Assembly (NCBI RefSeq): GCF_032854445.1
Contig: NC_088303.1
Location: 29,769,501 to 29,833,500, forward strand
Direction: 5' to 3'
DNA from: Liolophura sinensis
Taxonomy: Eukaryota > Mollusca > Polyplacophora > Chitonida > Chitonidae
Length of the DNA stretch: 64,000 nucleotides
A program made the position numbers and the translations under genes. The notes below the pieces were generated by a model, which saw only the letters and a program-made list of their open reading frames with translations, was not told the origin of the DNA and ran no database searches. Below are positions 7,386 to 27,545 of this stretch, piece by piece. The stretch's first letter is position 1. Each line of letters opens with the position of its first letter.

Positions 7386-7557
7386 AATCAATTAAAGAGG
7401 GATGAAAGAGGCAAAACATAGTGGAAACTTTCTATCTTTTGCACTGGTCTTGTGCGCTGGTCTTGTTGGCGTTGTGGCTCCAACTGAGAACAGGTTGTTA
7501 CATCTACAGAACTCGTGTACAGGTTCGACCCCGGCGTTATTAGCCAGGGTTTATCCC

Positions 7558-9351: not shown

Positions 9352-9379
9352 ATTTGACTTTGGATAAAATCAGTGGACA
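9352..9379 (+). CDS. Candidate kinase-gene exon: start of the MRH-like domain
   Basis: Candidate small exon. It is flanked by a 'tttatcag' acceptor and a 'gtaaaac' donor, and it encodes LTLDKISGQ with the split codon completed by the first base of the next exon. MRH domains usually begin with an acidic-Leu turn some 15-25 residues before the YxYxFNPC motif, which this matches. An alternative acceptor at 9305 would extend the same open frame by 15 codons. The donor is weak, so this is a suggestion. No signal-peptide exon was recognised upstream. Confidence 0.4.
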
Positions 9380-12300
9380 GTAAAACATGATAATAAATAA
9401 GATCTAGCAATTGAGCAATAACTCAAGACATTTGGAAATAAATTTATTGCTTTGTCACAATCTGCCGAGGACAGATTTTTGTGTCATGGTGGATTGTCGC
9501 AGAGCGTGTAATAAGCTGTAGCAGTGCTGTACCCTCTTGGTGTGGTATCATATATGTACGGTGGTGTAGTAATGCAATGTAGATCTACATACAAAATACA
9601 GTTATAATGTTAAAACATGAAACCTTATAAGGGTAAAAAGAGAAGAAAAAAAAACTGCTATTCTCCCACCTGCTTACACCACCCCCACTGCCCCCACCCC
9701 CCACATCCACCCCCACCACACACACACACACAAAAATTATTTTATTTGATTTATTTGATTGATGTTTTATGCCGTACTCAAGAATATTTCACTTATACGA
9801 CGGCGGCCAACATTATGGTGGGTGGAAACCGGGCACAGCCCTGGGGGAAACCCACGACCATAGACCTTCCCACTTACAGCCGGAGAGGAAGCCAGCATGA
9901 GCTGGACTTGAACTCACAGCGACTGTATTGGTGAGAGGCTCCTGGGTCATTACGCTGCGCTAGCGCGCTAACCAACTGAGCCACGGAGGCCCCGCACAAA
10001 AATTAAATTTTAAGATCTGTTTCATTTGAACACATTAAACCATGATAAAACAAATCAGTGAATTACAATGTAAATGCATCTGCTTCAGATTCAGTGTGGT
10101 CTACAAGTCCTATAACTACAGCTTCAACCCCTGTATGGCCTACAATGAGCCCAGGGACCCGTATGGAGGATCTAATATGTTTGGGGACATGTGCATCCAT
10201 GTTTCGGTATGTATCTACAAGTATACGTTCTCCTCGTCAGATGGTCCAAATAATTCAGTAGATCACTGGTTTTATTTTCCTGTGTACCAACACAGTTTCT
10301 CTTTGTTTGATGTATATGTCAATCTTTAATATGTTTAATGCTCACAAAATATGTTCCACAAACAAAACTTAATTATTTCACGACAAAGGCCCTTTGACTG
10401 GCTTAGAGCTCTAAATAGTTGATCTCTTTAAATTTCTTACTGTCTCCCAGTTAATAAGTTCACAGGTTCAAATCCTGCTCTTTCTAGTTCAGCTTTAAGT
10501 TAGAAGGTTTGTGTTAGGTAAAGGGGTGATTGAAGGGCAGTGTTTTAGTCCAGGTTCAAACCCACTATAGTTTAAGCCCTCATTCAGGATTTGGCTTTGA
10601 CCTCCTCCGTTTAGATATCTGCCATGAATACTAGAATTCATGCTGATAAGAATTCCACCAGTCCTGGCCATATGTTCATTGTCTTATTTGGACAGTACTT
10701 TCTCTCCTCTATCAACAGATGTGCAAATTCATCAAGGTGGATGAGCGGTACTTTTACTATAGAATTGGGTCCCAGTCATCAGCGGAGTTCACAGCTCGGA
10801 GAAATGTGGTGAAAAACTCCACTTCTGTGGAACTGACATTTAGAGGCATCAGGTAAGCAACATCACATGCTGTATTAATATACATGTAGACATGTTCTTT
10901 TTGAATCTTATTTGTTGTGGGATTCTAAAGAATACCCATTTCTGCATTTGAGTGTCTTTCATGTATTTTCATGAAGATTTATTTTTATTTGTGCAGAAAT
11001 TGCAGAGTAATGTTTACATAATCATTGTTTGTACGTTATTATAAAATATAATGTGTTTCAACGAAAATTGGGTATGTACATGTTAAAAAAATGCACTTTA
11101 GTAAAGAAAGAAAGGCCTTAAAATTATTACGTTTGATGCTAACTCCAAAAGTTTTTCTTAATTTTTCTTAATTAAGTCTGAGTGGCCCTATAAATCTATA
11201 TGAATCAATCAGAACCAAGCAAAATGTTGTCACTTGATGATGCTAAACTTTATGTCAATTACAGCAGTTTTGAAAATATTGAAAAGCAGATTGAAGGCTG
11301 TCCCTCTTTGGAATCCATTTTTGTGCTTAATATTCCATTGGGTTTATATTCTTAATAAAAATTGTTGATGCTACTTTCTTGAGGATTATTGTCTATGGTC
11401 AGGTTAAATCAAAATATTGAATTAAATTCAGACAGGAGACATACGAACGGAGAAGTCTGCTTGGATTCTGATTGATTGGTTGATTTTGACAGATCGCTAA
11501 GCCATGTGAAGACCCACATCACCCTGGTTTGTGATCTCTTCCGTATAAAACCAGAAGATGCAGAGTTCCGGATCACGGCTGACAAGATACGCGGAGATAT
11601 CGTACGTATGCTTTGTGCACAACCATTTTGGTCAGGCGTCGAGCTCAGAGCCTCAGCTCAGTATATGTTATCATCTTTACAAACATATTATGTTCATTAT
11701 TACTATTATTTTCTGGGGATACAGAATATATTATGTTTAATATTATTATTATTATTAATTTCTGAGGATACCAAAATATGTGTGTAGGATGTAGTTTCAA
11801 CTGACAAAATCTATTTATGAACATGTTGACTTTGAAACACAATGTTGTGTTAGAATCTTTGCACATGTGTACTACAGATGTCTTTCTCACATTTCTGACA
11901 TACATGCACATATAAAACCATGATACGCCCATTGTCTGTTATTAACCTTCCGGGGGCCGATCCCACAAAGTCAGTTTTGACTTGAACTGAAAAATTGAAA
12001 TATGAATTTGCAGTTTATTTTGGAGCCCTGTATATTGAAATTTGACCACCTCATCTATGTTGTCTTAAGATAAATGTGTCAAAACTTCAAATTCAGTTAA
12101 CAAAAACTAAGCATTGTTACATTATAAATTTTGACTTAAGTCAGAAATGTCTATAGGGAAACTGCCCTTACACTTTGTGAACAAGGTCATGCTTTCGTGT
12201 TTTTCTGATTCTGCCACTGTAATTGCCTGCAAGAATACAAGGATATGCTGTTATAGTCGGCATTGACCTTTCACAATTCTCATTAAGAGAGTGATAACCC

Positions 12301-15300
12301 TAGCAGACAATTACTGTTGCAAGAGAGGATATTAAGAGAGATATATCCTAGCAGTAGAGGCCTGTAGTTGATTGGCATTTTGGACATATATAATAATTAA
12401 ACAATACTGGACATTTGTGCAATTACATGTAAGTTTGTCTTTTGGTAATCTGCAAATGTTTTCACATTATTTTTAGGGATTATTCTACCACCGTTTAGTG
12501 TGAAGCGATTTCATGATATAAAACACCTCAGATGTACATACCTGATGTTGGATCAGATTGTTGTAGGTCAGCATAAGTCCTTGTGTCTGATTGCAGTTGC
12601 ATTTCTGGCCAAGCCGTGATAATCTTATCAGTGAAATGCAGTATTGGAGGATTTAGACGCAGTGTTTATGTAGGTGATGATGACGTAATGTTGTTCCTGT
12701 CAGCAAGCTGCAGATTGTCATAGGCTTCCCCCGGGGCTCTGCCTGGCTTCCACCCACCATAATGCTTGATGTCATTGTATAAGTGAACTTTTCTTGTGAA
12801 CAGCATAAAACACCAATCAAATAAATAAATATTTGTTGTCGTTCCTCCTTTTCCGCAGTATGCAGAACTTGCACATGTTTGTGCGTGTCCAGGTGCATGT
12901 GAAGGAAAACTGTCTCCTCCAGATGTTACAGAAAACCATGGCAAGAGTAAGTTTACTTTTTGCCTTTCAGATACAGCCAAATGAAATGGGTTGAGGAATA
13001 TTTGGGTACACCATATTCATTAACGCCAACGTTCGTTAATTAAGTAGTGATGAGCTGGTGACACCCTAAAACAGTGCTTCGCTTACCTCAAGCTGTTCAA
13101 ATCCACATCGTAGCATCTCCCTTTCCAATCTTCACACACAATTTTGCAATAGTAATCCAATGGTGTATCCAAATGTTCCCCATCCAGTAGTACTTGGACT
13201 ACCTTGTATGTAGTTTAGTTACTGATAATTGATGTGCCAGAAGTCTTGGAACCCATTCAGGAGATCAAACAGAATTTCATGCCACTCTCATGTATAGTGG
13301 TACACACTTAACTATTTGCTGTGAAAAAGTATTTTTTTGATTCTCAAAGGTGAAAAGTTATTTCAATGAACATATTATATTCAGACAGAAATTATAAATA
13401 TTTTACCATTGATTTGAACAAGTTCTTTACAACATGTTTTTATCAGGTGTATTTTATATTCGGACAATTTTAAGTTGTGTGGCTGGGTCATTCTAAACTG
13501 TCGGGATTTATCTTTTGTCTGCAAGTTATGTATGTTACTATGGTGACCAGGTACTGATATCTTATTACTGATGCCCTAGTTGATGGCATGTGAGAAACCA
13601 AGTTCTGGTGATCTGTTTTGCCTGGTTTCCTCCAACCGTATTGCTGGCTACCATCTTATAAGTGAAATGTTCTTGACTACGGCATAAAACACTAATCAAA
13701 TAAATAACTAAATAAATACTACTGGTCCTGTTTGTCATTACAGGTACGTACAAGATTGTCCAGGGGATGGCTGAAGACAATGCGGCCAAGGAGAAATCTT
13801 TTCCAGTCAGCAGTAATGCTCGGTCACTTCTCATTGTGTTTGGTATTAACATTGGGCTCTTGATCCTGGCTGTTTTCATTGGTGGATTATGTTACAGCAA
13901 GCGGAGTGCTTTGCGATCATACAATAAGCTTCCAGGTAAGATAACATATATTGATGGCAATTCCAAATAATTTCAATCTTTTACATTGAACATTTGCTGG
14001 GTCAGTGTGTGATGGTATGACCATCTTTGCTTAAAAAGATGAATGTGTAGAACCAAAAACCTGAAAGTTTTTGAGGATCTTGGTCATGTTTTTTGGATCG
14101 CCACGACACAAACACAGCCTAAGATTAATTTCTTGTCAGAAAAACTTAAATGATGGCATCAAAAAGGTCATCTGAAAGTGTATTTTTGCATACCAAACTT
14201 CAGGTGACAAACGGTATCATGATTCAACTGGTAGAACATAAATAAGATTTTTTGTGTTAAAATTCCAACATTTCCTGTTATGTTCCTGTGTTCCCTTATT
14301 GAAAGTGGCAGGGTCAGTTGTTAAGCTGATCATTGTTATCGTCTGTTGTCAATGTTATCATCTGCAGTCATTGTTCACATCTAGACATACCTCAGGGCTA
14401 ATCCTGTGCCCGTGGTTATTGTTCACCATAAGACTCTAATCGCCGGTGCTAATCTGTGTACTCTTTTCCATATATATCGCCATGAGAGTAGACACACAGC
14501 CTGATAAACACAGAATTTTGTCTTTAGCTCCTCTGATGAAAGCTATCTTAAGCCTCCAAGCAGACAAACATTGTTATACTGATAAGATCACAGAATGCAG
14601 AGAAGATGAGATTTAATAGATGACAGTACAGAGTAAAAAGAGATACGGAAGGGCCAGTGACCGGATTGCACCTTAAGGTTGTTGACGCTTTATTAGGATG
14701 GAAGATGTTTGCGTTGTGAATACATGTTGTTAGACTGAGTTTGAAACCACAGGTAAAACATTGATATATTTACCTGTGAAGTTTGCTCACTTATTGTGTA
14801 AAGCTTGCAGCGAATGCTACACACAGGTGTATGAATTTTGAAGCGGTAAAATATCATTTCGATGATCAATATTCCTCACCAGCATGAGTCTGGTGGGTCA
14901 TACATTATGTGATTTGTGTGCTTTGAGTGACTCATATCTACTGTACAATTGCCAAGATATGGCGTTAATTAAGTCAATCAATCATCCATGCTGCCGTACG
15001 CATAGTGCTCGGGCCTTATTTATCAAGTGTCTTAAGACTTAACACAAAAATTCAAACACCGTTACAATTAAAATGTTCTTCTCTTGGAAGTTTAAAATTT
15101 GTACACTGATTCGTTACCGTAGAACACGATCGGTGCCATGTTATAAGATAGGCAGTTAGCCCTACCATGCCGTAAAGTGGCGACGTCATTTTGCAATAGG
15201 ACGTCACTCTGTTGTCGTAATGACGTAACTCGAAAACTGAGTATTACAAGGGGAAGTCTGTCATTTGAGGAAATGTGTCAATGATGTGAACTGTCTGCCC

Positions 15301-18300
15301 TATGAGATAAAATGCAAATGAGGCAGCACAGTTATTCCCACAATGCAACGTTCGTGTGTGGATCGCACATGTTCTAGCAAAACACTATGATAGGTTGAAA
15401 TACGATCTAGCTTTCTGTTGACCAATTCCCAGTCATCTGTACAGCATGTGAAGTTACATGTCGATGACAGAGCATGTGACATGGTAGGCTGCATAATGAC
15501 GACAGAATACCGTGTGTGACATTCGAAGCTCACTGAATGCCAAGTCAGTCGAAAAAAGTCAATACTCAACCATGTTCCTCTGGCGACTTGAGCGAGCAGG
15601 TGAGTCGAAGGGAAACCCCAGATAGAACTGAACATTCAATTGTCCACTGAAGGTCAAATATTTGTAACTAATAGTCTGGAAGTCTTAACTATGAGTAGAA
15701 GCCGTAAAAAATTGGAACTGAATCTCTTTTGTTCCTGTCAGCAATAAGTCCATGTAATTGGTGTTCTGTATTTAAAGGTCTCCATGCCACCTGGGCAGGT
15801 GCTAACAAAGGGGACCTTCTTTCAATGTCGAGGAAAGCTTACCGCGATTACGAGCCACATGAAGATAAGCCACAGTTTCTACCTGTCTTGGAGGAGTGTG
15901 AAATTCCAATTGGTCATCTGGAAGTCAAACAGAGGTAGGGTGGATCTCATGAAAGCACAGGATCAGCAGAACCATTTCCATGGTGGATGCAGCTCTGGGA
16001 GGGCTAAGTACATGGTATCAGATTAAGTGTGGGTTCAGGGGTCTGCTTGTGAAAAGTGGTGCCATCTCTTGAAAATAGTGTTTATCAAATTTTTCACCTT
16101 TCAAAATCCAGAAGAAGATGCTTTTCTGATGATGATCACATTTAATTTTTCATTGGAATGTGCTTTCAATTTGAGTCAACATATAGTTACAAAAATGCAG
16201 TTGTCTGGTATTTTATTTACGTTGTAGACTCGGTGGTAATGTGTTTGGTGATACCTACAAAGGACGGTGGAAGGACAGATCAGTGGCCATCAAATGTATC
16301 ACTCATGGCATTCAGCTCAGCCAGAACAACTCAGACATTGTTAAGAAGATCAAGACAGAGGTGTCCATACTCAGGTGAGAATTGATCAGTTTGATTTATT
16401 CCTAGCAGTAGATGTGGAGTATCTCACTATACCTCATTGTGAGGTAGGATTGGATACTCCAGGATCAGTTAGAATTGGGTGAGAACCTCCTAGCAGTAGA
16501 TGTAGAGGAGATCATTATACCTGAGGCCTGTGTGTGAGGTAGGATAGGATTCTCCAGGATCAGTTGGGATCGAGTAAGAACCTTTTGGCATTAGATGTAG
16601 AGGATATCACTATACCTCAGGGTTGTGTGTGAGGTAGGATGGGATCCTCCAGGATCAGCTAGAATTGGGTGAGAACCTCCTGGCATTAGATGTAGAGGAT
16701 AGCACTATACCTCAAAGTTGTGTGTGAAGCAGAATAGGATCCTCCAGGATCAGTTGGGATTGGGTGAGGACCTCCTGGCATTAGATGTAGAAGATCTCAC
16801 TAGACCTCAGGATTGGGTGTGATGTAGGATAGGATCCTCCAGGATCAGTTGGGATTGGGTGAGGACCTCCTGGCATTAGATGTAGAAGATCTCACTAGAC
16901 CTCAGGATTGGTTGTGATGTAGGATAGGATCCTCCAGGATCAGTTGGGATTGGGTGAGGACCTCCTGGCATTAGATATAGAAGATCTCACTAGACCTCAG
17001 GATTGGGTGTGATGTAGGATAGGATCCTCCAGGATCAGGTGGGATTGGGTGAGGACCTCCTGGCATTAGATGTAGAAGATCTCACTAGACCTCAGGATTG
17101 GGTGTGATGTAGGATAGGATCCTCCAGGATCAGTTGGGATTGGGTGAGAATCTCCTGGCATTAGATGTATGGAGGATTTACTCTACCTCTGTTTTGGGTG
17201 TTTGGTAAGATTGGAAGATTGGAGAAAAGGATGTCGCATTTATTAGAATAATATAGTGTTAGGTTGTGTTGATTTTAAGAAAATGTCCACATTACACATC
17301 TTCCGAACTCTCAGATTTTTTTGTCAAAATAAATTTCACATACCTGTAATTATGTTAATTTTGTTTATTGTGATGTCACTTACAGTGCCCGTGTTTGTGG
17401 AAGTGTTTTTGCGTTTAGAGCAAAAAAGGGGCACATTCTGAAGCTTTTATTCCTCTCTTTTTGAGACTCGTATTGCAAGCTCTTTATGTCCTTGAGCTTT
17501 TTTTTGACCAGTTCCTGTTGTCTTTCAGCAAAGCCCGTCATAAAAACATAGCTGCCATGATTGGAATGTGCTTTGAGGCCAAATTTCCATACATAGTCAA
17601 TGAGATGATCAATGGAAGGTCTGTCAAAGAGTACATACTGGCTGAAGACTATGTATCATGGTCACAGAAGATCAGAATGGTAAGTAAAATAGAAGATTGG
17701 AATGGCGATATACATGTAGGTTTAGTTTAAGTTTTCCCTTTCAACTAAATGTTGATATTGTGACTCTGGCCTGGTAGTTAGCATAGCTAACACAGCATGA
17801 CCCAAGAGCCTCTCACCCAGTCATTGTTAGTCCATCTCATTCTGGCTTCTTCTCCGGTTGTACATGGGAAGGTCTTGCAGCAACCTGCGGATGGTTGTAG
17901 GTTTCTGCTGGGCTCTACCCAGTTTCCTCCCACCATAATGCTGGCCACCATCACCGGTAAGTGTTACAAAAACCTTTATAAATTAATAAATAAATATATT
18001 GTGACCAAAAACATGGAATAGTATTCACGGTCTTTGCCAGACAGTAGGGCTTCATTCAAAACATAAATTGTTTTAGCATTTCTTTAATGCATTCTGTATG
18101 CAGTGGTGTTCATCAAAGCTAACCGATTTTACTTGCCTTATATGAGTGGGTGATGTTAATGTCAATGAATGTGAAGCTTTCTGCATTCAGAAAGAACTGA
18201 TGGCAATTGGTACTTGTAAGGGAAGGCTTGAAATGGAATGTAAAAGTTGTATTTTGGGGAAAACAAGTGGAAAGAGTTTGTTGTGATGTTTGTTGTTGTT

Positions 18301-21300
18301 GCTGTTGTGACTCCAGTGTATCCAGGCTGCAGACGGAATGACCTTCCTACATTCTGTCAAACCCAACCCAATACTCCACCGAGATTTGCGCTGTGCTAAC
18401 TTGATGATCACACCAGAAGAGATCGTCATTGTAAGTATACATCTTAACTGCTGGAAAATTTTATTTTTGTCAAGTTGTACTTTTCACCAGCATAATCCAG
18501 CACACTCATCAAGGTACAAAAAATTTTAAATATTAAACATATAAATATTATATTGTAATATAAAATATTAAACCTGGATCCAAAGGTCAAGGTTTGGAAC
18601 AAATCATTCCTCTTCAGGAAAAATGGTACATGTACTTCTAATGTTATTTTTGTCAAATTATTTCTCCTTAATGATGGTGAATTATTTTCAAACAAGCCAT
18701 GACGAAATACATATTATTGCTGTTTATTATTACCCACTTCATTTTTTTTTTTTTTGACTTTAAGGTTGTTGATTTCGGAGTGACAGCCATTTTACAACCA
18801 GTACGAGAAGAGTGCCAAAGAGCCAAATGTTTCTGTAAGTCTATATCTAGTACATGCATGTGTCATGTGAAAATTTATTTATGAATATCACATTTAAGTT
18901 TGTTGTCTTTCAGATGCTATAGCATATCTATTGTGAGTTCTGGTGTTCAGCATGAAGGGGAGAGTGCAACGACTGGTTGACCTGTATCAATATAATGGCT
19001 AGGGCAGGGTGTCTTACTTGCCTTCGGTGAGCTGTCTCAGTGAAGCAGCACTAGATCAGAGAGTGGTGGAAATCCGTCATGCAACATGGAGGAACAGTAC
19101 ATGCACTCTAAGGCTTCCTTCGTCGTCATATGAAAAATTGTTAAGAACGACATTAAACCCAAAGCACTCACTCACTCACTTACTCAGTTGGGAGTTCAAT
19201 CCTGGTCTTGGACAGAGAACTTGTGGATCCCCTCTCTTTTACTGTGTGTTGGACTCACCAAGCACAGTGCATGGTCACTTGCAAAGTTCAGTGTTTATTG
19301 AATAGGGGAGTTTCGAGTTTGAACTATTTTATTGATAAAGGTATAGTCCAACTGTGTCATGTGACCAGTCAAAAATGTTAGGCAACATTTTTTTTATCAT
19401 ATTCACTATGACATGGGCATCTGAAAAAAATGTCATAAAAAGTAATTCAGAGGAGACAAATAATAGAAAACTGAGAATATGAACATTTGTCAATTTGAAA
19501 AGTTCAGAAAGGAAATAGGTGTCATTTGTGCCATTGGAAAACATTGACACAAGTGATCAATAAGTTAATGGCAACAAAGTTTGCCTAGCATTTTTCACAA
19601 GTGACATGACACAATAGAACTGTTTTTACCTTTGACCACAGAAAAGTTCCAACTCTCAACTCTCCTATTTGCAATGTGATTCCCTTGTTATAAAATGTTT
19701 TGTGGCATTATGGTCTAAACATTAAAAGATTTAAAAAAAGCTTATCTGGAACATCATAGGGTACGTGTACATACACAGCCGGGTGTGAGGATATAGTGGT
19801 ACCGGCATCTGGTCAGCAAACTTGAAAGCCTTTGGTAATATGAATGTAATTTCATAAGTCATTTCTCTGGAAACACTTTACAGACGCCTCAAACTTTTTC
19901 AATTTCTTTTCAGGCAGCTCCCCGTGAAATTGCGGGTTTGCCAATGATCTCCTCAGAATTTACGTTATCCACCCACCTTTGCTGGTGTACACTCTATGTG
20001 GATTTCCTTGAGCTTATGTCTCATGCTAGCTAATGTATGTTTAGCCTGGTAATGACCAGGCTATTCCAGAAAGACCGTGCATGAAGAAACACAAATCCGC
20101 TCATAGTTTTGTCTTTCTCTGCGAAATGAGCTGCTGTTCTCGTTGAGGTCCGCGCTCTGCCCTCATATATTCAATGACTCGCCCTCCCAGTTGTACTCAA
20201 GCCTCGCCTGTTAAGCTTATTACTGTCTACTACTTATCTCAGCATAAGCATACCCCTCACTCGAAGTTGCTCGAGTTAATCTGTGCCACTGAAGCGCACT
20301 AGCTCAGTATGAAATGCCTTCAAGAAGATTCTCTTCTAAGGCTAAACGCCACAAGGCAAAATGTACAGAACGTACTACGACAGAGAAAATTAAAATAAAA
20401 GTGAAAGCGTTGGACACTGCTAAGCAGTTTATCAGAAACCTCTCTCTTGTATCTCTTATGGAGGACAATATTCTTTTCCTATCTAAAGGTCTTAACTTTG
20501 TCCCAACTCAATAAATTGGTCCTCTAGATCTTATGTCAGATTTTAGGACTTTCGAAAAACACATGAGAACTAGGTTCCACTTACACAGTGCTAAGAGAGA
20601 TATTAAGCAAAGGGACACTCCTCTTAAACGCAAATATCCAATTGCCCAGCCTCTTGCTAATGACTCCGTGGAGAACTATCTGGATGTAACCAAATTACTC
20701 ATATCCAATGTGAGCCGTGCATTCAGTGGCGTGAACAACCTTTCGAAGGGAGCAAAGAAGTCTCTTAATAAACTATGCACGCTCGACCGTGTTATTATCA
20801 TTACGAAAGCTGATAAGAACAATACCACTGTAATACAGAATGTCTCTGATTACATTAAGGAGGCAAATAGGCAGCTCTATGATGGTATTCACTGCCAGGA
20901 AATCGGAACGATTGACCTGAATATCACGAAAGCCAAAGTATATCAGGTTGTATGTGAACTATTCAGCACAAAGCAAACTGATAAACGGTGTCTCTAAATG
21001 AATATCTCTCAGATATTTCCTGAGGGAAATAAATACTCTAAGGAAATATTTCCTCTGTGTCCTCTAATCAGCTACCATAGAGGCAAGAACCTACGTGAAA
21101 TCCTGCGTGAATCCAACTGATAGCATATGCTAACTTTATCGTTGTTGTGGACTCCTGATGAGGGTGGACCGGAGCATTAAAAGCCAGACATACCTAAAAC
21201 ACTGCAAACATAGTCATGTACAGGTTGAACCAAATCCAATGCTATGACAAACATTCACTTATATGCAGAGCTGTCCCTTTTAGTCTTGTACTATTTACAC

Positions 21301-24300
21301 AGCATGCTGTAATGGACAGTGTCGAGTCTGAGTCTACCCCAGTTAAACTTTGGGTGTGGCTTACTGGATCAGTTTTTTTCCTCTGAATTCTAGTTTATTT
21401 AATAGATTGGTATTATTTGCACCATGCGAGCTCAAGAATATTTTATCTCCAACAGTCATCTTTATGTATGGAGGAAATCAGGTGCCCAAGGTACCCCAAA
21501 AAACACTACACCTTGCCTACCTGAAAAACACCTTGGATGTTTTTGTGTTTTTTTTTAAACTAATGCCACACTGTAAAATTTTCACTTATTCTACGATGGT
21601 GACCAGTATAAATAATTGGTGTAGGGAAACAGGATACCGGTACACATTAACATTTGTCAAGATATACTGGCAAACTTTCATGTGTAACTTTTGTAATATT
21701 ACTGGAAGGCAAGTTGTCTTGAGCAAACTTCATGTAAAGCTACATGAAACAACACAATGATCATGGGGTGCTTGTTGGCACCAAGGCGATGACCTTTGGG
21801 AACTGGGGCCCATTTCACAAGTGCATGTAGCGATACATTCACGTAATTACCATGGCCATGTAATATCTACAGTACTGGTTGAAATGGAAGCTAAATGCAC
21901 GTTACATTAAGTGCAGATTTACTGAGGTTAGTGGTGTCGATGGCAAAAGCAGGTATCGTGGATTCTCCACTGATCATATGTTCTGCAGGTCAGAAGGAAC
22001 TAAGCGCATGCCCCGCCTCTATACGATGGACGGCCCCCGAAATTCTCCACCAGACCGATTCAGAGAAAAACCAGACGACCTTTACGACCAGCTGTGACGT
22101 CTACTCCTTTGGAATGATCTTGTGGGAAATGTTAAAGGGCGAGAATCCATTCTGCGAAATCCAGGCTGAGCTGGAGGTAAGAGTGGCAAGGTCTCAACAT
22201 GTACATTTATATGTGTAAATTTGCAGAGTGCTAAAATTGGGGAAATCAAATTGACTTCAGTGTTTGTACATGGTTAAGTCCTAGGCAGCTGTATACCTTT
22301 AGGCAAGAGGGCATAGTTTATGTCAACTTCATGCCTGGTGTCCTCTGCAGGGCATTACAGTTTGGCACATCATAAATATGTTCACTATAGTAACTGCTTC
22401 CTACAAGGTGACATCTTTTTAAAATAATTAACGGCCCCGATAGCTCAGTTGGTGGAGCGTCTGCTTCGGGGGCGGTAGATCCAGAGTCAATCCTGGGTCG
22501 GGTCACACCTATGACCTTAAAAAGAGGCAGCTGTAGCTTCCTGGCTTGGCGTTCAGCATTAAGGGGATAGTGCAGTGACTGGTTAACCCGTATCAGTATA
22601 ATGACTTGGGCAGGGCGCCTTACTTGCCTTTGGTAAGTTGTCTCATTGAAGCAGCTCTAGAGAAGTGGAAATCCACCCTGCAACAAGGAGACACCTTATA
22701 CTTACATAGATTCTAAGGACTCCTTCGTTGTCGTATGGCTGAAAAATTTTTAAGTACGACATTGAACCTGAATAACTCAGTCGCTCTTAAATAATTTACC
22801 TGCAGTCAAGACGACTGATATTAAAACCCTAGCAGCAGTGAAACTTCAACTAGACAGTGATCAGCTTGTGTGTTCGCATTGGTTGTGTGTTCAAATTTTA
22901 ACCAGACTTTAAACAGCTTCTTGATTTTCTTAGGTTATAAGTAAAAAAGTAAGATTCAGCACACAGGCAACTGAAAACTATGCGTAAAAAAACTTTCATT
23001 TATTTTTTCAGATTTTTTTAAGAGTGTGGAAAGTCATGGAAATATTTGAACACTATGGTAGGCTTTATGAACCACACTGACGGTATTGAGGAACAATGAC
23101 ATCACATCATCTGGCTTCGTGATGTTCGCCAGACAGAAGGAATTTTGGGAATATTATTTCAGTAATCTTTTACTCATAAGTAAAAAGATTTATTCCAACA
23201 TTCAGTGTCATGATTAGAGTGGGATAAACTTTCTGTGACGTCAGAGTTCCTAACTTCTGATAGTATGGTCCATAAAGCCCACCTTAAAAGTCAACTGTTT
23301 GAGCGCCTTGAACTATTTTTGAAAAAAATCAACAAAAAAATAAATGAGAGTACATTTATGCATAGTTTTAAGTGGTGTATTTGGTGATGCCTACTTCGAT
23401 TTTTAAAGGCTTTTTCTTTAAATTTTGACCAGACATCAATTAACTCATGGGTTCACACCAGGTTACTGCACAGTTATGACGTCATTTGCTGCGATACAGG
23501 AAAAATATCATCTCCAAGCAGCCATAGCCTGACTGTAATCATAAAACTCTCATAAAACTCTGGTCTTGGCCTTTCTTTTATAATGACATTGCTGTACCAC
23601 TGACCATCTGCTAAACAATTTGCTGGACATAAACTGAGCTCACTATGGCTATGCATTGTGCCATAAGGATAGATTACTTCTGTTTATTTGCCAAATGATA
23701 ATAGTTTGCATTGGGCAATTTGATTTCCCCTGATTATCATGTAGAGGTAAAATATTCTCGAGAACTGCATGTATGTTAAACACCATGCAGTTAATCAATC
23801 GTTCAGACATTTGATGTTCAGGTATCAGTTCCATCTAAATACTTTGCCGATCTGTAAATAGATAGCTGTCAAGGTGTCGAGTTCCCAGCTGAACCTTGTG
23901 ACTTTGGTGGTTTATTCAGTTAAGTGTCTTGCTACAATGCAGATCTGATCTTGACCAGTGAGATTGCTTGTTTTAATGCTGTAGCTCTCGCTATTTCCTT
24001 AGATGCTTTGGGTCAAGGTTTGTCAGCTACTTATGCCCAGTTTCTTCCGAACATATGTATTCTGTAGTACAGCAATAAACCACTGTGAAAAATAGCGAAA
24101 ACATCTGTTATTAGACATGGTTAATCCAATTTTAATTGTTTTACGAAAATCACTGTTCAGTGTCAGAGGAGGGTATAAAAATAAAACCTGGAAATCATGT
24201 AATTTTAAAAAATCTAAAAACCTAAAAAAATCTAGACTACCGTGGAAATTTAAATGAAATCTAGATTACCATGGTAATTTGTATAAAATCTAGACCACCG

Positions 24301-25427
24301 TGGAAATTTTTCATGCTGAAGGAGATTTTACACGACTGGAAAACATTGAAAAACAGGAAAATCGTAAAAACATTTAGAACGGACGAAATAAAATGGCATA
24401 TTTTTAGTATTGTTTTTGTTGCATTTTTGGATTTGTTAGGATCGACTTGGCTGTAAGACATGAAATGAAATTGGTATGGCCTAATTTATGAACTGCTTCT
24501 TTTTTAACGAATGGCTTGGTTACAGATCATGGAGATCGTCAAGGCTGGAGGTAGACCTGTAATTCCCCAAGACATCAGTATTCCTTCCAAGTACAAAGAT
24601 CTGATGAAGGAGTTGTGGGAAGGGGATCCACTCAGGAGGCCCACCTTCAAGCAGGTTAGCTTTGGCATAATCCAACAGATCCATTACTTATCAGTACAGG
24701 ATTTGGTTCTGCACGTGCACATTTTGTGTTTCTAGAACCAGCTGTATCAAAAAGTTTATTAAAATTTAAGCCAGGTTTTCATTTTAATACCAGCCTTTGT
24801 TCTTTTGCACAAACTAAAGTTAATACCGGGTTCAAGTGCTAACAAAGCGGCCTTGAAGTACATGATTTATGTTTCTGACATAAACACTGGTTTGCACAAT
24901 TTGTTTTTCTGGAATGCGGTTTGTTTCTGAAACATATGAGTTGTTTTCACTATTAAGATTATCTTGAAAGTCATTCTCTCTTTTATAGGTTTATATATAG
25001 CTGCCGGTAGTTCTAATCTAAAGGATTTTTGAAATTAACTTGATCAGATGGAGCATAGCATCTTGTGTTAACATTACATGACATCGTAGGAAAGAGTTCA
25101 TGTAAAAGAAGGTAGCCATTGTGACATTAAGCCATAATCATTGATTCAAGAGACGGTGATGTCATAATACAACATGTGGGCAAATATATAGGGTGTATTA
25201 ACTATGCAGTGTATATTACATTTATTTCTTTCTTTTAGGTATTTAGTTCTCCTTGGTCGTGTAACAGAAAAGTGTTAATCGTGATTTACAGGATATTTTT
25301 CGTGTTTTTTTAATAGGTTGTGTCAGCATTAAAGGAAGCCATGTCGCAGGCGAGGCATTTAGAGAAACATGGTATGTCACACACACAGACCAGTAGAAGT
25401 TCAACACCTGTCACTCAGCTGGTCTGA
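9352..25427 (+). CDS. MRH-like ectodomain receptor kinase (spliced, 13 or more exons)
   Basis: A single-pass receptor kinase, 568 residues from the exon at 10089 onward plus an N-terminus not found. Numbering starts at that exon. Residues 1-135 carry the MRH/Man-6-P receptor/Atg27-like spacing: YNYSFNPC (8-15), Cys35 and Cys41, YYRIGSQS (52-59), ITLVCD (93-98), CACPGAC (128-134), with sequons at Asn9 and Asn72. A transmembrane helix spans about 178-200, followed by a basic stop (SKR). Kinase domain about 266-545: glycine loop 268-273, VAIK Lys288, alpha-C Glu310, HRD Asp388, Asn393, DFG Asp406, APE 442-444, alpha-F Asp463, Arg527. All catalytic residues are present, so activity is predicted. 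Phases agree across every junction. DVYSFG and SIRWTAPE look TKL-like, while HRDLRxxN looks Src-like, so substrate class is open. MRH assignment is by motif spacing only (about 0.6); the kinase call is near certain. Confidence 0.88.
9740..9995 (-). mobile_element. SINE-1 copy, full length with tRNA-like head
   Basis: Contains the tail, the central conserved domain and a complete tRNA-like head ending 'aaccaactgagccacggaggcccc'. The minus strand has a pol III A box (TGGCTCAGTTGG) and B box. A short gap removes part of the 'ccgcaggttgctgg' segment. It lies in the first introns of the kinase gene, antisense to it. Confidence 0.93.
10089..10206 (+). CDS. Kinase gene exon: MRH-like domain, FNPC motif
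   Basis: Encodes residues 1-39, starting after 'ctgcttcag' and ending before 'gtatgtatc' in phase 0. It contains VVYKSYNYSFNPC and GDMC, the aromatic-x-aromatic-x-F-N-x-C pattern of MRH beta strands, and a sequon at Asn9. A shorter exon starting at the second AG (10095) is possible but would drop the residues joining it to the previous exon. Confidence 0.8.
10719..10852 (+). CDS. Kinase gene exon: MRH-like domain, middle strands
   Basis: Starts after 'ctatcaacag' in phase 0 and ends before 'gtaagc' leaving two bases. Encodes MCKF, then YYRIGSQSSAEF and VELTFRGI, which fit the 'Cys-Gln...LG.Q..A.F...L.Y..G' run of MRH domains. The usual Gln after Cys is Lys42 here. Sequon at Asn72. Confidence 0.88.
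11493..11601 (+). CDS. Kinase gene exon: MRH-like domain, LVCD strand
   Basis: Acceptor 'gattttgacag', donor 'gtacgt'. The first base completes Arg84. Encodes VKTHITLVCD and then a charged stretch ending KIRGDI. In MRH domains the residue just before this strand is normally the sugar-binding Arg; Lys90 occupies that region here. Confidence 0.88.
12690..12831 (+). mobile_element. SINE-1 3' fragment
   Basis: Diverged 3' half with 'cccccggggctctgcctgg', 'ccaccataatgct' and 'aacaccaatcaaataaataaat', 27 bp upstream of a kinase-gene exon. Confidence 0.85.
12859..12946 (+). CDS. Kinase gene exon: end of MRH-like domain, CACPGAC
   Basis: Acceptor 'cttttccgcag', donor 'gtaagt' after one base of a codon. 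Encodes YAELAHVCACPGACEG and a Pro/Glu linker. The 'Y.....C.CPG.C' ending is typical of the last strand of MRH and Atg27-like folds. A truncated SINE lies just upstream in the same intron. Confidence 0.88.
13600..13720 (+). mobile_element. SINE-1 3' fragment
   Basis: Diverged tail ('gcctggtttcctccaaccgt', 'ataagtgaaatgttcttgac', 'aacactaatcaaataaa') ending 23 bp before the transmembrane exon. Confidence 0.85.
13744..13935 (+). CDS. Kinase gene exon: linker and transmembrane helix
   Basis: Acceptor 'ttacag', donor 'gtaaga'. Encodes an extracellular stalk rich in charged residues, then an uninterrupted hydrophobic run (residues about 178-200, LLIVFGINIGLLILAVFIGG) followed by SKR, the positive-inside signature of a type I membrane protein. 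A kinase domain downstream places the C-terminus in the cytosol. Confidence 0.93.
15778..15934 (+). CDS. Kinase gene exon: juxtamembrane segment
   Basis: Acceptor 'atttaaag', donor 'gtaggg', phases fit both neighbours. Encodes residues 214-266. YRDYEPHEDK supplies two tyrosines (235 and 238) in an acidic setting that could be regulatory phosphosites (inference). The segment ends at the first kinase strand (IPIGHLEVKQR). Confidence 0.92.
16228..16374 (+). CDS. Kinase gene exon: glycine loop, VAIK, alpha-C
   Basis: Acceptor 'tacgttgtag', donor 'gtgaga'. Encodes LGGNVFGDTYKGRW, then SVAIK (Lys288, ATP anchor) and IKTEVSIL (Glu310, salt-bridge partner). The loop reads G-G-N-V-F-G where GxGxxG is expected, so the second glycine is Asn270. 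The following intron starts directly with a 95-bp tandem array. Confidence 0.96.
16385..17190 (+). repeat. 95-bp tandem repeat in a kinase-gene intron, about 8 copies
   Basis: 'aggatcctccaggatcag' recurs at about 16831, 16926, 17021 and 17116, a period of exactly 95 bp. The rightmost units are nearly identical; the left units are more diverged. The array starts within about 12 bp of the splice donor of the glycine-loop exon. Confidence 0.92.
17529..17679 (+). CDS. Kinase gene exon: hinge region
   Basis: Acceptor 'ttgtctttcag', donor 'gtaagt'. Encodes ARHKNIAAMIGMC, the 'H.NI....G.C' strand common to TK and TKL kinases, then YIVNEMINGRSVKEYI, the hinge. Aligned with Src-type 'YIVTEYMSKG', the gatekeeper is Asn339 rather than Thr. 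Confidence 0.96.
17766..17998 (+). mobile_element. SINE-1 copy with diverged tail
   Basis: Head remnant ('atgacccaagagcctctcacc'), central domain and A-rich end. The usual 'cgtataagtgaaatattcttg' is replaced by 'accggtaagtgttacaaaaa', so the tail was rearranged. Confidence 0.85.
18317..18430 (+). CDS. Kinase gene exon: catalytic loop HRD
   Basis: Acceptor 'gactccag', donor 'gtaagt', phase 0 at both ends. Encodes AADGMTFLHS and then ILHRDLRCANLMI with catalytic Asp388 and Mg-binding Asn393. HRDLRxxN is the Src-family form; most Ser/Thr kinases have HRDLKxxN. Confidence 0.97.
18765..18834 (+). CDS. Kinase gene exon: DFG and start of activation segment
   Basis: Acceptor is a long T tract followed by 'actttaag'; donor 'gtaagt' leaves one base. 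Encodes VVDFGVTAIL, then REECQRAKCF. DFG is intact (Asp406). There is no tyrosine in the encoded activation-segment part. The next intron (3.2 kb) holds a SINE, a MITE and a Penelope-like fragment. Confidence 0.95.
18941..19188 (+). mobile_element. SINE-2 copy, 5'-truncated
   Basis: From 'ggtgttcagcatgaagggga' to 'actcactcactcacttactc'. It lies in the intron after the DFG exon. Confidence 0.85.
19341..19623. mobile_element. MITE with about 40-bp terminal inverted repeats
   Basis: The left 'ctgtgtcatgtgaccagtca' and 'aaaatgttaggcaac' pair with the right 'tttgcctagcatttttcac' and 'gacatgacacaatag'. Total length is about 283 bp; it lies in the intron after the DFG exon. Confidence 0.7.
20314..21120 (+). 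pseudogene. Penelope-like retroelement, N-terminal remnant
   Basis: One frame runs from 20314 to 20997, broken by a single in-frame TAA at 20512. It carries FIRNLSLVSLMEDNILFLSKG followed by LNFVPT, and later IIITKADKNNTTVI with DYIKEANRQL. These are the 'NLS..L...E...LskGL.FvPT' and 'vi.kADKg...vi...dYi' motifs that open Penelope-type reverse transcriptases. The catalytic palm is missing. At 21052-21120 another frame gives PLISYHRGKNLREIL, a C-terminal motif of the same proteins, so the middle was deleted. The remnant lies in a kinase-gene intron, in sense orientation. Confidence 0.72.
21989..22176 (+). CDS. Kinase gene exon: APE motif and alpha-F/alpha-G
   Basis: Acceptor 'catatgttctgcag', donor 'gtaaga'. 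The split codon gives Cys427. Encodes QKELSACPASIRWTAPEIL, then SCDVYSFGMILWEML and NPFCEIQAELE. The APE motif, alpha-F Asp463 and the DVYSFG signature are all intact. An insert of polar residues (QTDSEKNQTTFTT) separates APE from alpha-F and is longer than in most kinases. Confidence 0.97.
22432..22790 (+). mobile_element. SINE-2 full-length copy with tRNA-like head
   Basis: The head 'cggccccgatagctcagttg' carries an A box (TAGCTCAGTTGG) and, 40 bp on, a B-box-like 'agatccagagtcaatcc'. The body carries 'ttggcgttcagcattaaggg' and the 3' signature 'ctgaaaaatttttaagtacgac'. It is not a functional tRNA: no cloverleaf is completed. Confidence 0.87.
23057..23283. mobile_element. MITE with imperfect inverted repeats
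   Basis: The left 'ggtaggctttatgaaccaca' and the right 'tatggtccataaagcccacc' are inverted, and the match continues inward to 'gacatcaca' against 'tgtgacgtca'. About 227 bp, in a kinase-gene intron. Confidence 0.6.
24526..24654 (+). CDS. Kinase gene exon: alpha-H and RRPTF
   Basis: Acceptor 'ggcttggttacag', donor 'gttagc', phase 0 at both ends. Encodes IMEIVKAGGRPVIP and then DLMKELWEGDPLRRPTFKQ, the conserved end of TK/TKL kinase domains with invariant Arg527. Confidence 0.97.
25317..25427 (+). CDS. Kinase gene terminal exon with stop (read-through form)
   Basis: Acceptor 'ttttttaatag'. Encodes VVSALKEAMSQARHLEKH, the last kinase helix, then a polar tail ending TPVTQLV and TGA at 25425-25427. 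A donor-like 'gtatgt' at 25372 after 18 codons plus one base could instead splice to an exon at 28017. The tandem minisatellite family begins within about 50 bp of the stop. Confidence 0.8.
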   Translation, partial: VVSALKEAMSQARHLEKHGMSHTQTSRSSTPVTQLV

Positions 25428-25439
25428 ACACTGGGCCTT

Positions 25440-27545
25440 AGCAGCATTACAGAGAGTTTGTGATGCCATTCCCTCCCACAATAACAATAGCTTGTTAGCA
25501 GTGTTCACGTCGGAGCAATCAAGGTGGGCTGGAGGACCAGCTTTTGTGCAGAGATTGCTGGTGACATCAGCAATGCAAGAGCATTTTTCATGTGGGCTGG
25601 ATGAACAGCTGTCAGTCAGAGATTGCTGGTGACATCAGCAATGCAAGAGCATTTTTCATGTGGGCTGGATGAACAGCTGTCAATCAGAGATTGCTGGTGA
25701 CATCAGCGATGTAAGCGCATTTTTCATGTGGACTGGATGAGTAGCTTTCATACAGTTTACTTGTGACATCATCACACCAGAATAACATTAGCTTGTGATC
25801 AGCAATGTAAGCGCATTTTTCATGTGGGCTGGATGAACAGCTTTCATACAGTTTACTTGTGACATCATCACACCAGAATAACATTAGCTTGTGATCAGCA
25901 ATGTAAGCGCATTTTTCATGTGGACTGGATGAACAGCTTTCATACAGTTTACTTGTGACATCATCACACTAGAATAACAGTAACTTGTGATCAGCAATGT
26001 AAGCGCATTTTTCATGTGGACTGGATGAGTAGCTTTCATACAGTTTGCTTGTGACATCATCACACCAGAATAACATTAGCTTATGATCAGCAATGTAAGA
26101 GCATTTTTCATGTGGACTGGATGAGTAGCTTTCATACAGTTTACTTGTGACATCATCACACTAGAATAACAGTAACTTGTGATCAGCAATGTAAGAGCAT
26201 TTTTCATGTGGACTGGATGAGTAGCTTTCATACAGTTTACTTGTGACATCATCACACCAGAATAACATTAGCTTATGATCAGCAATGTAAGAGCATTTTT
26301 CATGTGGGCTGGATGAACAGCTTTCATACAGTTTACTTGTGACATCATCACACCAGAATAACATTAGCTTATGATCAGCAATGTAAGAGCATTTTTCATG
26401 TGGACTGGATGAGTAGCTTTCATACAGTTTACTTGTGACATCATCACACTAGAATAACAGTAACTTGTGATCAGCAATGTAAGAGCATTTTTCATGTGGA
26501 CTGGATGAGTAGCTTTCATACAGTTTACTTGTGACATCATCACACCAGAATAACATTAGCTTATGATCAGCAATGTAAGAGCATTTTTCATGTGGACTGG
26601 ATGAGTAGCTTTCATACAGTTTACTTGTGACATCATCACACCAGAATAACATTAGCTTATGATCAGCAATGTAAGAGCATTTTTCATGTGGACTGGATGA
26701 GTAGCTTTCATACAGTTTGCTTGTGACATCATCACACTAGAATAACAGTAACTTGTGATCAGCAATGTAAGAGCATTTTTCATGTGGACTGGATGAGTAG
26801 CTTTCATACAGTTTGCTTGTGACATCATCACACCAGAATAACAGTAACTTGTGATCAGCAATGTAAGAGCATTTTTCATGTGGGCTGGATGAACAGCTTT
26901 CATACAGTTTACTTGTGACATCATCACACCAGAATAACATTAGCTTATGATCAGCAATGTAAGAGCATTTTTCATGTGGACTGGATGAGTAGCTTTCATA
27001 CAGTTTACTTGTGACATCATCACACTAGAATAACAGTAACTTGTGATCAGCAATGTAAGCGCATTTTTCATGTGGACTGGATGAGTAGCTTTCATACAGT
27101 TTACTTGTGACATCATCACACTAGAATAACAGTAACTTGTGATCAGCAATGTAAGCGCATTTTTCATGTGGACTGGATGAACAACTTTCATACAGTTTAC
27201 TTGTGACATCATCACACTAGAATAACAGTAACTTGTGATCAGCAATGTAAGAGCATTTTTCATGTGGACTGGATGAACAGCTTTCATACAGTTTGCTTGT
27301 GACATCATCACACTAGAATAACAGTAGCTTGTGATCAGCAGTGTAAGAGCATTTTTCACGAGGCTCGAGGGGCAGCTTTCCTACAGAGTTTGTTTTTGAG
27401 ATCATCATGCCAGAATAATAATAGCTAAGAGTATCCTTCAAGTGGGCTGGAGGGGCAACTTTCATACAGAGATTGCTTGTGACATCATCAACCCAGAATA
27501 ACAATAGCTTGTGATCAGCAGTGTAAAAACATTCTTCATGTGGGC
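25440..27545 (+). repeat. 96-bp minisatellite, about 20 copies, with 68-bp variants
   Basis: The main unit is 96 bp (markers 'gatcagcaatgtaag' at 25797, 25893 and 25989). Three units at about 25523-25727 are only 68 bp because a 28-bp stretch ('caccagaataacattagctt' region) is missing. A single diverged unit with that stretch precedes them at about 25440-25520. Copies differ at a few recurring positions (gactgg/gggctgg, gagtag/gaacag, cacacc/cacact). Because 96 is divisible by 3, one minus-strand frame stays open across several units (32 aa each). That is a by-product, not a gene. Confidence 0.95.

Follow-up and report, generated by a model that had tools for sequence, protein, structure and literature searches.

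A gene of the chiton Liolophura sinensis is predicted to encode a single-pass receptor kinase whose ectodomain is of the mannose-6-phosphate receptor homology (MRH) type. The gene lies in a stretch of 64,000 nucleotides (the window), which covers positions 29769501-29833500 of contig 9 in an assembly with 609,464,459 bases and 632 contigs. Judged from the sequence, it is rather probable that this MRH domain, in which the mannose site is changed, recognises a protein ligand or a partner.

Gene model and kinase domain

According to the gene model, which was derived from genomic sequence, 13 exons on the + strand between positions 10089 and 25427 splice to a protein of 568 amino acids plus a stop codon. 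All 12 introns have GT/AG borders, the exon phases agree throughout, and the reading frame is open across all exons to the TGA at 25427, with neither a stop nor a frameshift. The ectodomain is encoded by exons 1-4, a stalk and one transmembrane helix by exon 5 (model residues ~178-198, with a 21-residue hydropathy maximum of 2.67), and the juxtamembrane part and complete kinase by exons 6-13. An earlier sequence-only reading of this DNA had proposed this order of parts in one spliced protein, and the gene model agrees with it; the five short strings quoted there were all located on the + strand (YNYSFNPC in exon 1, MCKF and YRIGSQS in exon 2, ITLVCD in exon 3, CACPGAC in exon 4).

The kinase is covered by the Pfam family PF07714 (PK_Tyr_Ser-Thr) at positions 1-258 of 258 (E 1.1e-48), and the Lys of VAIK, the Glu of the alpha-C helix and the HRD, DFG and APE motifs are retained. 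Among solved structures, 244 sequences matched at E <= 1e-20, and the best full-domain relatives within the best 60 of these 244 were TNNI3K (3.9e-31), B-Raf, a Src/Abl ancestor, Roco4 and TAK1; the top-ranked entry, EGFR, owes its score to two repeats with 63 bits each. The catalytic loop, HRDLRCAN, is without the lysine of HRDLK that is usual in Ser/Thr kinases, yet TKL kinases rank best among the full-domain matches. With its complete domain and catalytic residues, the kinase belongs by sequence to the TK/TKL group. It is like other members in these respects, and differs from them in the MRH ectodomain and transmembrane helix, in HRDLRCAN as opposed to HRDLK, and in a glycine loop (GGNVFG) that has Asn in place of the middle Gly. 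A close kinase paralog was not seen in the own-genome search, where 17 of 24 matches had at most 35% identity and the other seven (74-98%) were the window's own exons.

The junction between exons 5 and 6 separates the ectodomain and helix from the kinase. The sequence-only reading had noted matching phases there, and this was confirmed: the strong exon 5 donor (CCAG/gtaaga) and the exon 6 acceptor (tttaaag/G) are both phase 1. The junction also bears on another explanation, in which an MRH/transmembrane protein ending near exon 5 is followed by a second gene for the kinase, with its start near exon 6. Read-through beyond exon 5 hits a stop, the intron between the two exons is 1.8 kb long, and the exon structure was read from genomic sequence only. 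In addition, two short ATG exons whose donors would fit lie in this intron; one of them (15572-15599, + strand) has a 9/9 consensus donor and a phase compatible with exon 6. Against two genes stand the phase-1 junction, a pattern scan of the same intron in which the aromatic-Trp tail motif of M6PR-type receptors was not seen, and the low number of same-strand MRH/kinase neighbours expected by chance within 3 kb, roughly estimated at ~0.004 before the phase match is counted (assuming ~15 MRH loci, 100 kinase genes and 609 Mb). Since these results favour one gene for exons 1-13, a pair of adjacent genes is considered unlikely.

Homology and predicted fold of the ectodomain

The sequence-only reading had also recognised an MRH-type ectodomain, and transitive homology via paralogs in the same genome supports this assignment. 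In the own-genome search, residues 4-142 of the query matched locus L007 on contig 8 (E 0.001, 37% identity), and a second locus on the same contig, L008, was matched at E 0.39. Both are single open frames with a hydrophobic start and a cysteine pattern similar to that of the window ectodomain, and both match ATG27 weakly, under the cut-off (E 0.023 for L007 and 0.01 for L008). By means of L007 a gene on contig 13 was found (E 8.7e-4), which has MRH-like exons, a transmembrane helix and a tail. When its exons are put together by eye, the protein scores above two Pfam cut-offs, that of Man-6-P_recep at 2.1e-14 over the membrane/tail part (residues 148-208) and that of ATG27 at 3e-12 over residues 48-211; by sequence it is a receptor of the M6PR/ATG27 type.

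Profile scores connect these steps. A profile of L007 and L008 gave the window ectodomain 36.0 bits, compared with 7.6 and 7.9 bits for the best shuffled sequences (470 and 455 scored), and gave the contig 13 gene 35.4 bits, compared with 10.1 for the best shuffle. For each test 500 shuffles of each of two kinds were drawn, and 455-497 were scored in the tests with this profile. When the contig 13 gene was added to the profile, the window copy scored 32.5 bits versus 9.7 in shuffles. A four-sequence profile that included the window copy was compared with 177,635 PDB sequences and had only two matches at E <= 10, domain 5 of CI-MPR (2kva, E 0.5) and GNPTG (7s69, E 0.62); each is weak alone, and both are MRH proteins aligned in register.

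The fold was predicted for the paralog L007, using AlphaFold2 and an alignment of 13 rows, three of which were window exons. The mean predicted local distance difference test score (pLDDT) of the model was 49.4, with block means of 63-70 over residues 81-140 and below 50 over residues 1-79; an earlier model from two sequences (pLDDT 34.3) was too poor for a structure search. Foldseek returned 192 matches at E <= 10, and among the best 50 of these, ranks 1-29 (E 4.4e-5 to 0.19) were MRH proteins, namely CI-MPR, CD-MPR, GNPTG, glucosidase II beta, OS-9, Yos9, XTP3B and Elapor1, followed at ranks 30-50 by unrelated chains with E >= 1. This count includes three rows for Elapor1, which we take to be an MRH protein, and six complex entries in which the matched chain was taken to be the MRH partner. 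In VIA-align, 44 of the 50 best rows, and the first 24 without exception, were MRH proteins or complexes with one, Elapor1 again being presumed to belong to them. An MRH fold is well supported for L007 by the model, and homology makes the same fold probable for the window ectodomain.

Several results weigh against this assignment. Searched directly, the window ectodomain matched nothing significantly in Pfam or PDB. With a profile built solely from the contig 13 gene it scored 5.1 bits, under the best shuffles (7.0 and 7.3), so that the link to MRH proteins depends on L007 and L008. The Z scores of VIA-align were 6.4 or lower, a range (Z < 8) in which the tool warns that a match may reflect merely a common arrangement. 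The fold model is that of a paralog with a mean pLDDT below 50, to which the window copy is linked by the 36-bit profile score. Moreover, ATG27 and Man-6-P_recep were absent from the Pfam matches of the window protein (maximum E 10, with HMMER filters dropping most matches above ~0.1), and the protein is therefore not placed in those sorting families.

Some candidate matches of the ectodomain were taken as noise (Methyltransf_22 in Pfam, E 0.16; a Mg2+ transport protein, E 0.13, and tartrate dehydrogenase, E 0.99, in PDB), and one weak match in the own genome, L009, was dropped (E 3.9, one stop). It was also found that L007 and L008 lie together with L014 in a cluster of MRH-like genes on contig 8 (57.17-57.26 Mb), which have hydrophobic starts and some copies of which are broken or partial. 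Several exons at contig 13:14106638-14109709, on contig 11 and at contig 8:48.43 Mb (L010-L013) match the tail region of ATG27, and those on contigs 11 and 8 (L011-L013) were weak hits with the MRH profile.

Sugar-site residues and possible ligands

Mannose-binding MRH lectins are characterised by the quartet Gln-Arg-Glu-Tyr. For domain 5 of CI-MPR, we take the mannose-contacting residues to be Q644, R687, E709 and Y714; all four letters were correct in the 2kva chain at a single offset of 577. The corresponding columns were compared in three MAFFT modes. None of the four residues is in place in the window copy, which has K, V, K and I in columns 644, 687, 709 and 714 and no Glu at 707-710. 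The same columns hold Q, R, D and Y in L007, and Q, R, S and Y in L008. Both paralogs keep Gln, Arg and Tyr exactly, with the Glu one column off, at 708, where CI-MPR also has Glu and the window copy has Asp. A fragment in the contig 8 cluster (L014:4822-5016) has R, Y and the E at 708, and in the contig 13 gene Q and R are unchanged, the remaining columns being gap-dependent. These results indicate a probable loss of the usual sugar-binding site in the kinase-linked copy. Two details of the alignment temper this: a Tyr of the window copy sits one residue past the Tyr column, so its loss hinges on gap placement, and in the paralogs, too, the Glu can be located only to within one column.

The changed residues argue against the suggestion of the sequence-only reading that the receptor senses glycans or phosphoglycans. 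In such a receptor, the MRH domain would bind mannose or phosphomannose through its altered site and signal via the kinase. The MRH fold assigned by homology is consistent with this function, the residues kept by L007 and L008 (Gln, Arg, Tyr and a Glu near its place) make sugar binding plausible for the family, and the displaced Tyr of the window copy could be added to these points. In the window copy itself, however, all three alignment modes place Lys and Val in the Gln and Arg columns and no Glu at or beside the Glu column. The replacement of Gln and Arg makes a glycan sensor less likely, and we regard it as improbable.

Loss of the key mannose-site residues is the basis on which we infer a protein ligand or receptor pairing. 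The MRH domain would have been recruited from the MRH family of the same genome, probably through exon shuffling, and the copy linked to the kinase would have lost the residues in question. At the cell surface, where the protein is predicted to be located, the ectodomain could bind a protein ligand or pair with another receptor, by analogy with the IGF2R domain that binds IGF-II. Clustering driven by the ligand would bring the kinase domains together and may lead to trans-phosphorylation.

A number of observations on the gene as a whole count against such a receptor. The missing middle glycine of the loop could reduce the kinase activity that is expected from the retained catalytic residues. 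The ATG exon at 15572-15599 could be an alternative first exon, from which a cytosolic kinase without the ectodomain would be made, and the gene model is known from genomic sequence alone. Neither the window nor the 10 kb upstream of it yielded the 5' exon or exons with a signal peptide and the first cysteines; no candidate there was convincing by cysteine pattern and donor phase. No second copy with MRH domain, transmembrane helix and kinase was seen in the own genome, among the best candidates scored.

Some of these observations (the sole copy, the 5' exon not found and the altered glycine loop), together with the changed sugar site, would also be expected of a degenerating or unexpressed copy, the parts of which are intact by sequence while the receptor is no longer used. 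The 13 exons are, however, free of stops and frameshifts, and the catalytic Lys, Glu, HRD, DFG and APE are all retained, so this explanation is considered very unlikely. A receptor kinase with a protein ligand or partner is preferred.

Related receptors, exon coordinates and other loci

Known MRH proteins work in the sorting of enzymes, in the reading of glycans in the ER and in autophagy trafficking; IGF2R, which binds a growth factor by an MRH domain, is not known to have a kinase of its own. The window protein resembles the MRH proteins CD-MPR, CI-MPR/IGF2R, OS-9, GNPTG and glucosidase II beta in the fold assigned by homology via the paralogs and in the pattern YxFNPC, VxxCx, ITLxCD and CACPG. 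It differs from them in its changed mannose-contacting residues and in having a cytoplasmic kinase, where they have a sorting tail or are soluble or ER proteins. With sorting receptors of the ATG27/M6PR type, including the member on contig 13, it has in common an MRH ectodomain followed by one transmembrane helix, and it differs from them in the kinase that replaces the short cytoplasmic sorting tail, as well as in the lack of a listed Pfam match to either family.

Lectin-type ectodomains are also joined to kinases in plant lectin receptor kinases and in malectin-like plant kinases, which have other folds, belong to other organisms and are alike in plan only. For the malectin-like kinases this arrangement is described in PMC4444583. 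An MRH kinase was not found to be reported among the matches listed for literature on this architecture or on mollusc kinases; three of the lists were covered at their top (15 of 433, 15 of 166 and 12 of 110 papers), with 0 occurrences of the MRH or ATG27 term per paper, which makes them weak tests. In addition, the word 'mannose' occurs 0 times in the main text of the oyster kinome study (PMC4883820). The receptor is possibly of a new type, as the sequence-only reading had suggested. More tentatively, it might be the founder of a class of receptor kinases in animals that use an MRH domain from the lysosomal/autophagy sorting family, without its mannose site, as the ligand-binding domain; the secreted MRH paralogs, in which most of the sugar site is retained, could then be soluble partners or decoys. 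An MRH fold on a kinase, if true, would mean that a fold used for sorting had been converted into a signalling receptor, and that the loss of the sugar site and the gain of signalling can be traced within one lineage.

The coordinates of the exons are given in table 1. The span described by the sequence-only reading began at 9352, and this start corresponds to a possible exon which is tentative and was read by eye. Its end phase suits exon 1, and the encoded segment looks like the GxLxLxxL segment that precedes YxFNPC in the paralogs. A signal-peptide-like ATG at 7402 has, by eye, a phase 2 donor that does not suit this candidate exon, and it was left out.

Table 1. Exons of the predicted receptor kinase gene, in window coordinates
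Feature	Content	Position	Strand	Basis
Possible 29-nt exon (tentative)	LTLDKISGQ, upstream edge of MRH domain	9352..9380	+	AG before, GTAAAA after
Exon 1	MRH, FSVVYKSYNYSFNPC...MCIHVS	10089..10206	+	Splice model; open reading frame with independent E-value (iE) 3.2e-9, profile including window copy
Exon 2	MRH, MCKF...YRIGSQSSAEF...LTFRGI	10719..10852	+	Splice model; profile including window copy
Exon 3	MRH, HVKTHITLVCD...	11493..11601	+	Splice model; profile including window copy
Exon 4	MRH end, YAELAHVCACPGACEG, and stalk	12859..12946	+	iE 0.0022, weakest of the four MRH exons
Exon 5	Stalk, transmembrane helix, juxtamembrane start	13744..13935	+	Both ends in phase 1; 21-residue hydropathy maximum 2.67
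Exon 6	Juxtamembrane part, kinase domain start	15778..15934	+	Splice model; Pfam
Exon 7	Glycine loop (GGNVFG, middle Gly = Asn), VAIK, alpha-C Glu	16228..16374	+	
Exon 8	Kinase N-lobe/hinge	17529..17679	+	Splice model; Pfam
Exon 9	Catalytic loop HRDLRCAN	18317..18430	+	
Exon 10	DFG	18765..18834	+	
Exon 11	End of activation loop, APE, SCDVYSFGMILWEM	21989..22176	+	
Exon 12	Kinase C-lobe	24526..24654	+	Splice model; Pfam
Exon 13	End of kinase, C-terminal tail, TGA stop	25317..25427	+	Splice model

Repeats were also seen in the window. One tandem array with a 96-bp unit (25606-27441) begins ~180 bases past the stop codon of the gene, and another with a 95-bp unit (16343-17212) lies within the intron between exons 7 and 8. 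Open frames at 20293-20994 (+), in the intron between exons 10 and 11, may represent a fragment of a Penelope-like retroelement. Stretches resembling tRNA, at ~22431-22490 (+) and 9952-9990 (-), look by eye like tRNA-derived short interspersed elements.

Elsewhere in the genome, a single long open frame on contig 5 (L017, contig 5:19376507) encodes a PBP_like_2 ectodomain (2.1e-18), a kinase-homology domain and Guanylate_cyc (5.3e-24). PBP_like_2 belongs to the phosphate-binding-protein superfamily, and the protein would be a receptor guanylate cyclase that carries a binding domain of bacterial type. A locus on contig 13 (L018, contig 13:29554741) resembles it by eye, with Pfam giving kinase families only at E <= 0.001, and a further one on the same contig (L021, contig 13:4703611) was grouped with these two as a candidate of the same kind.

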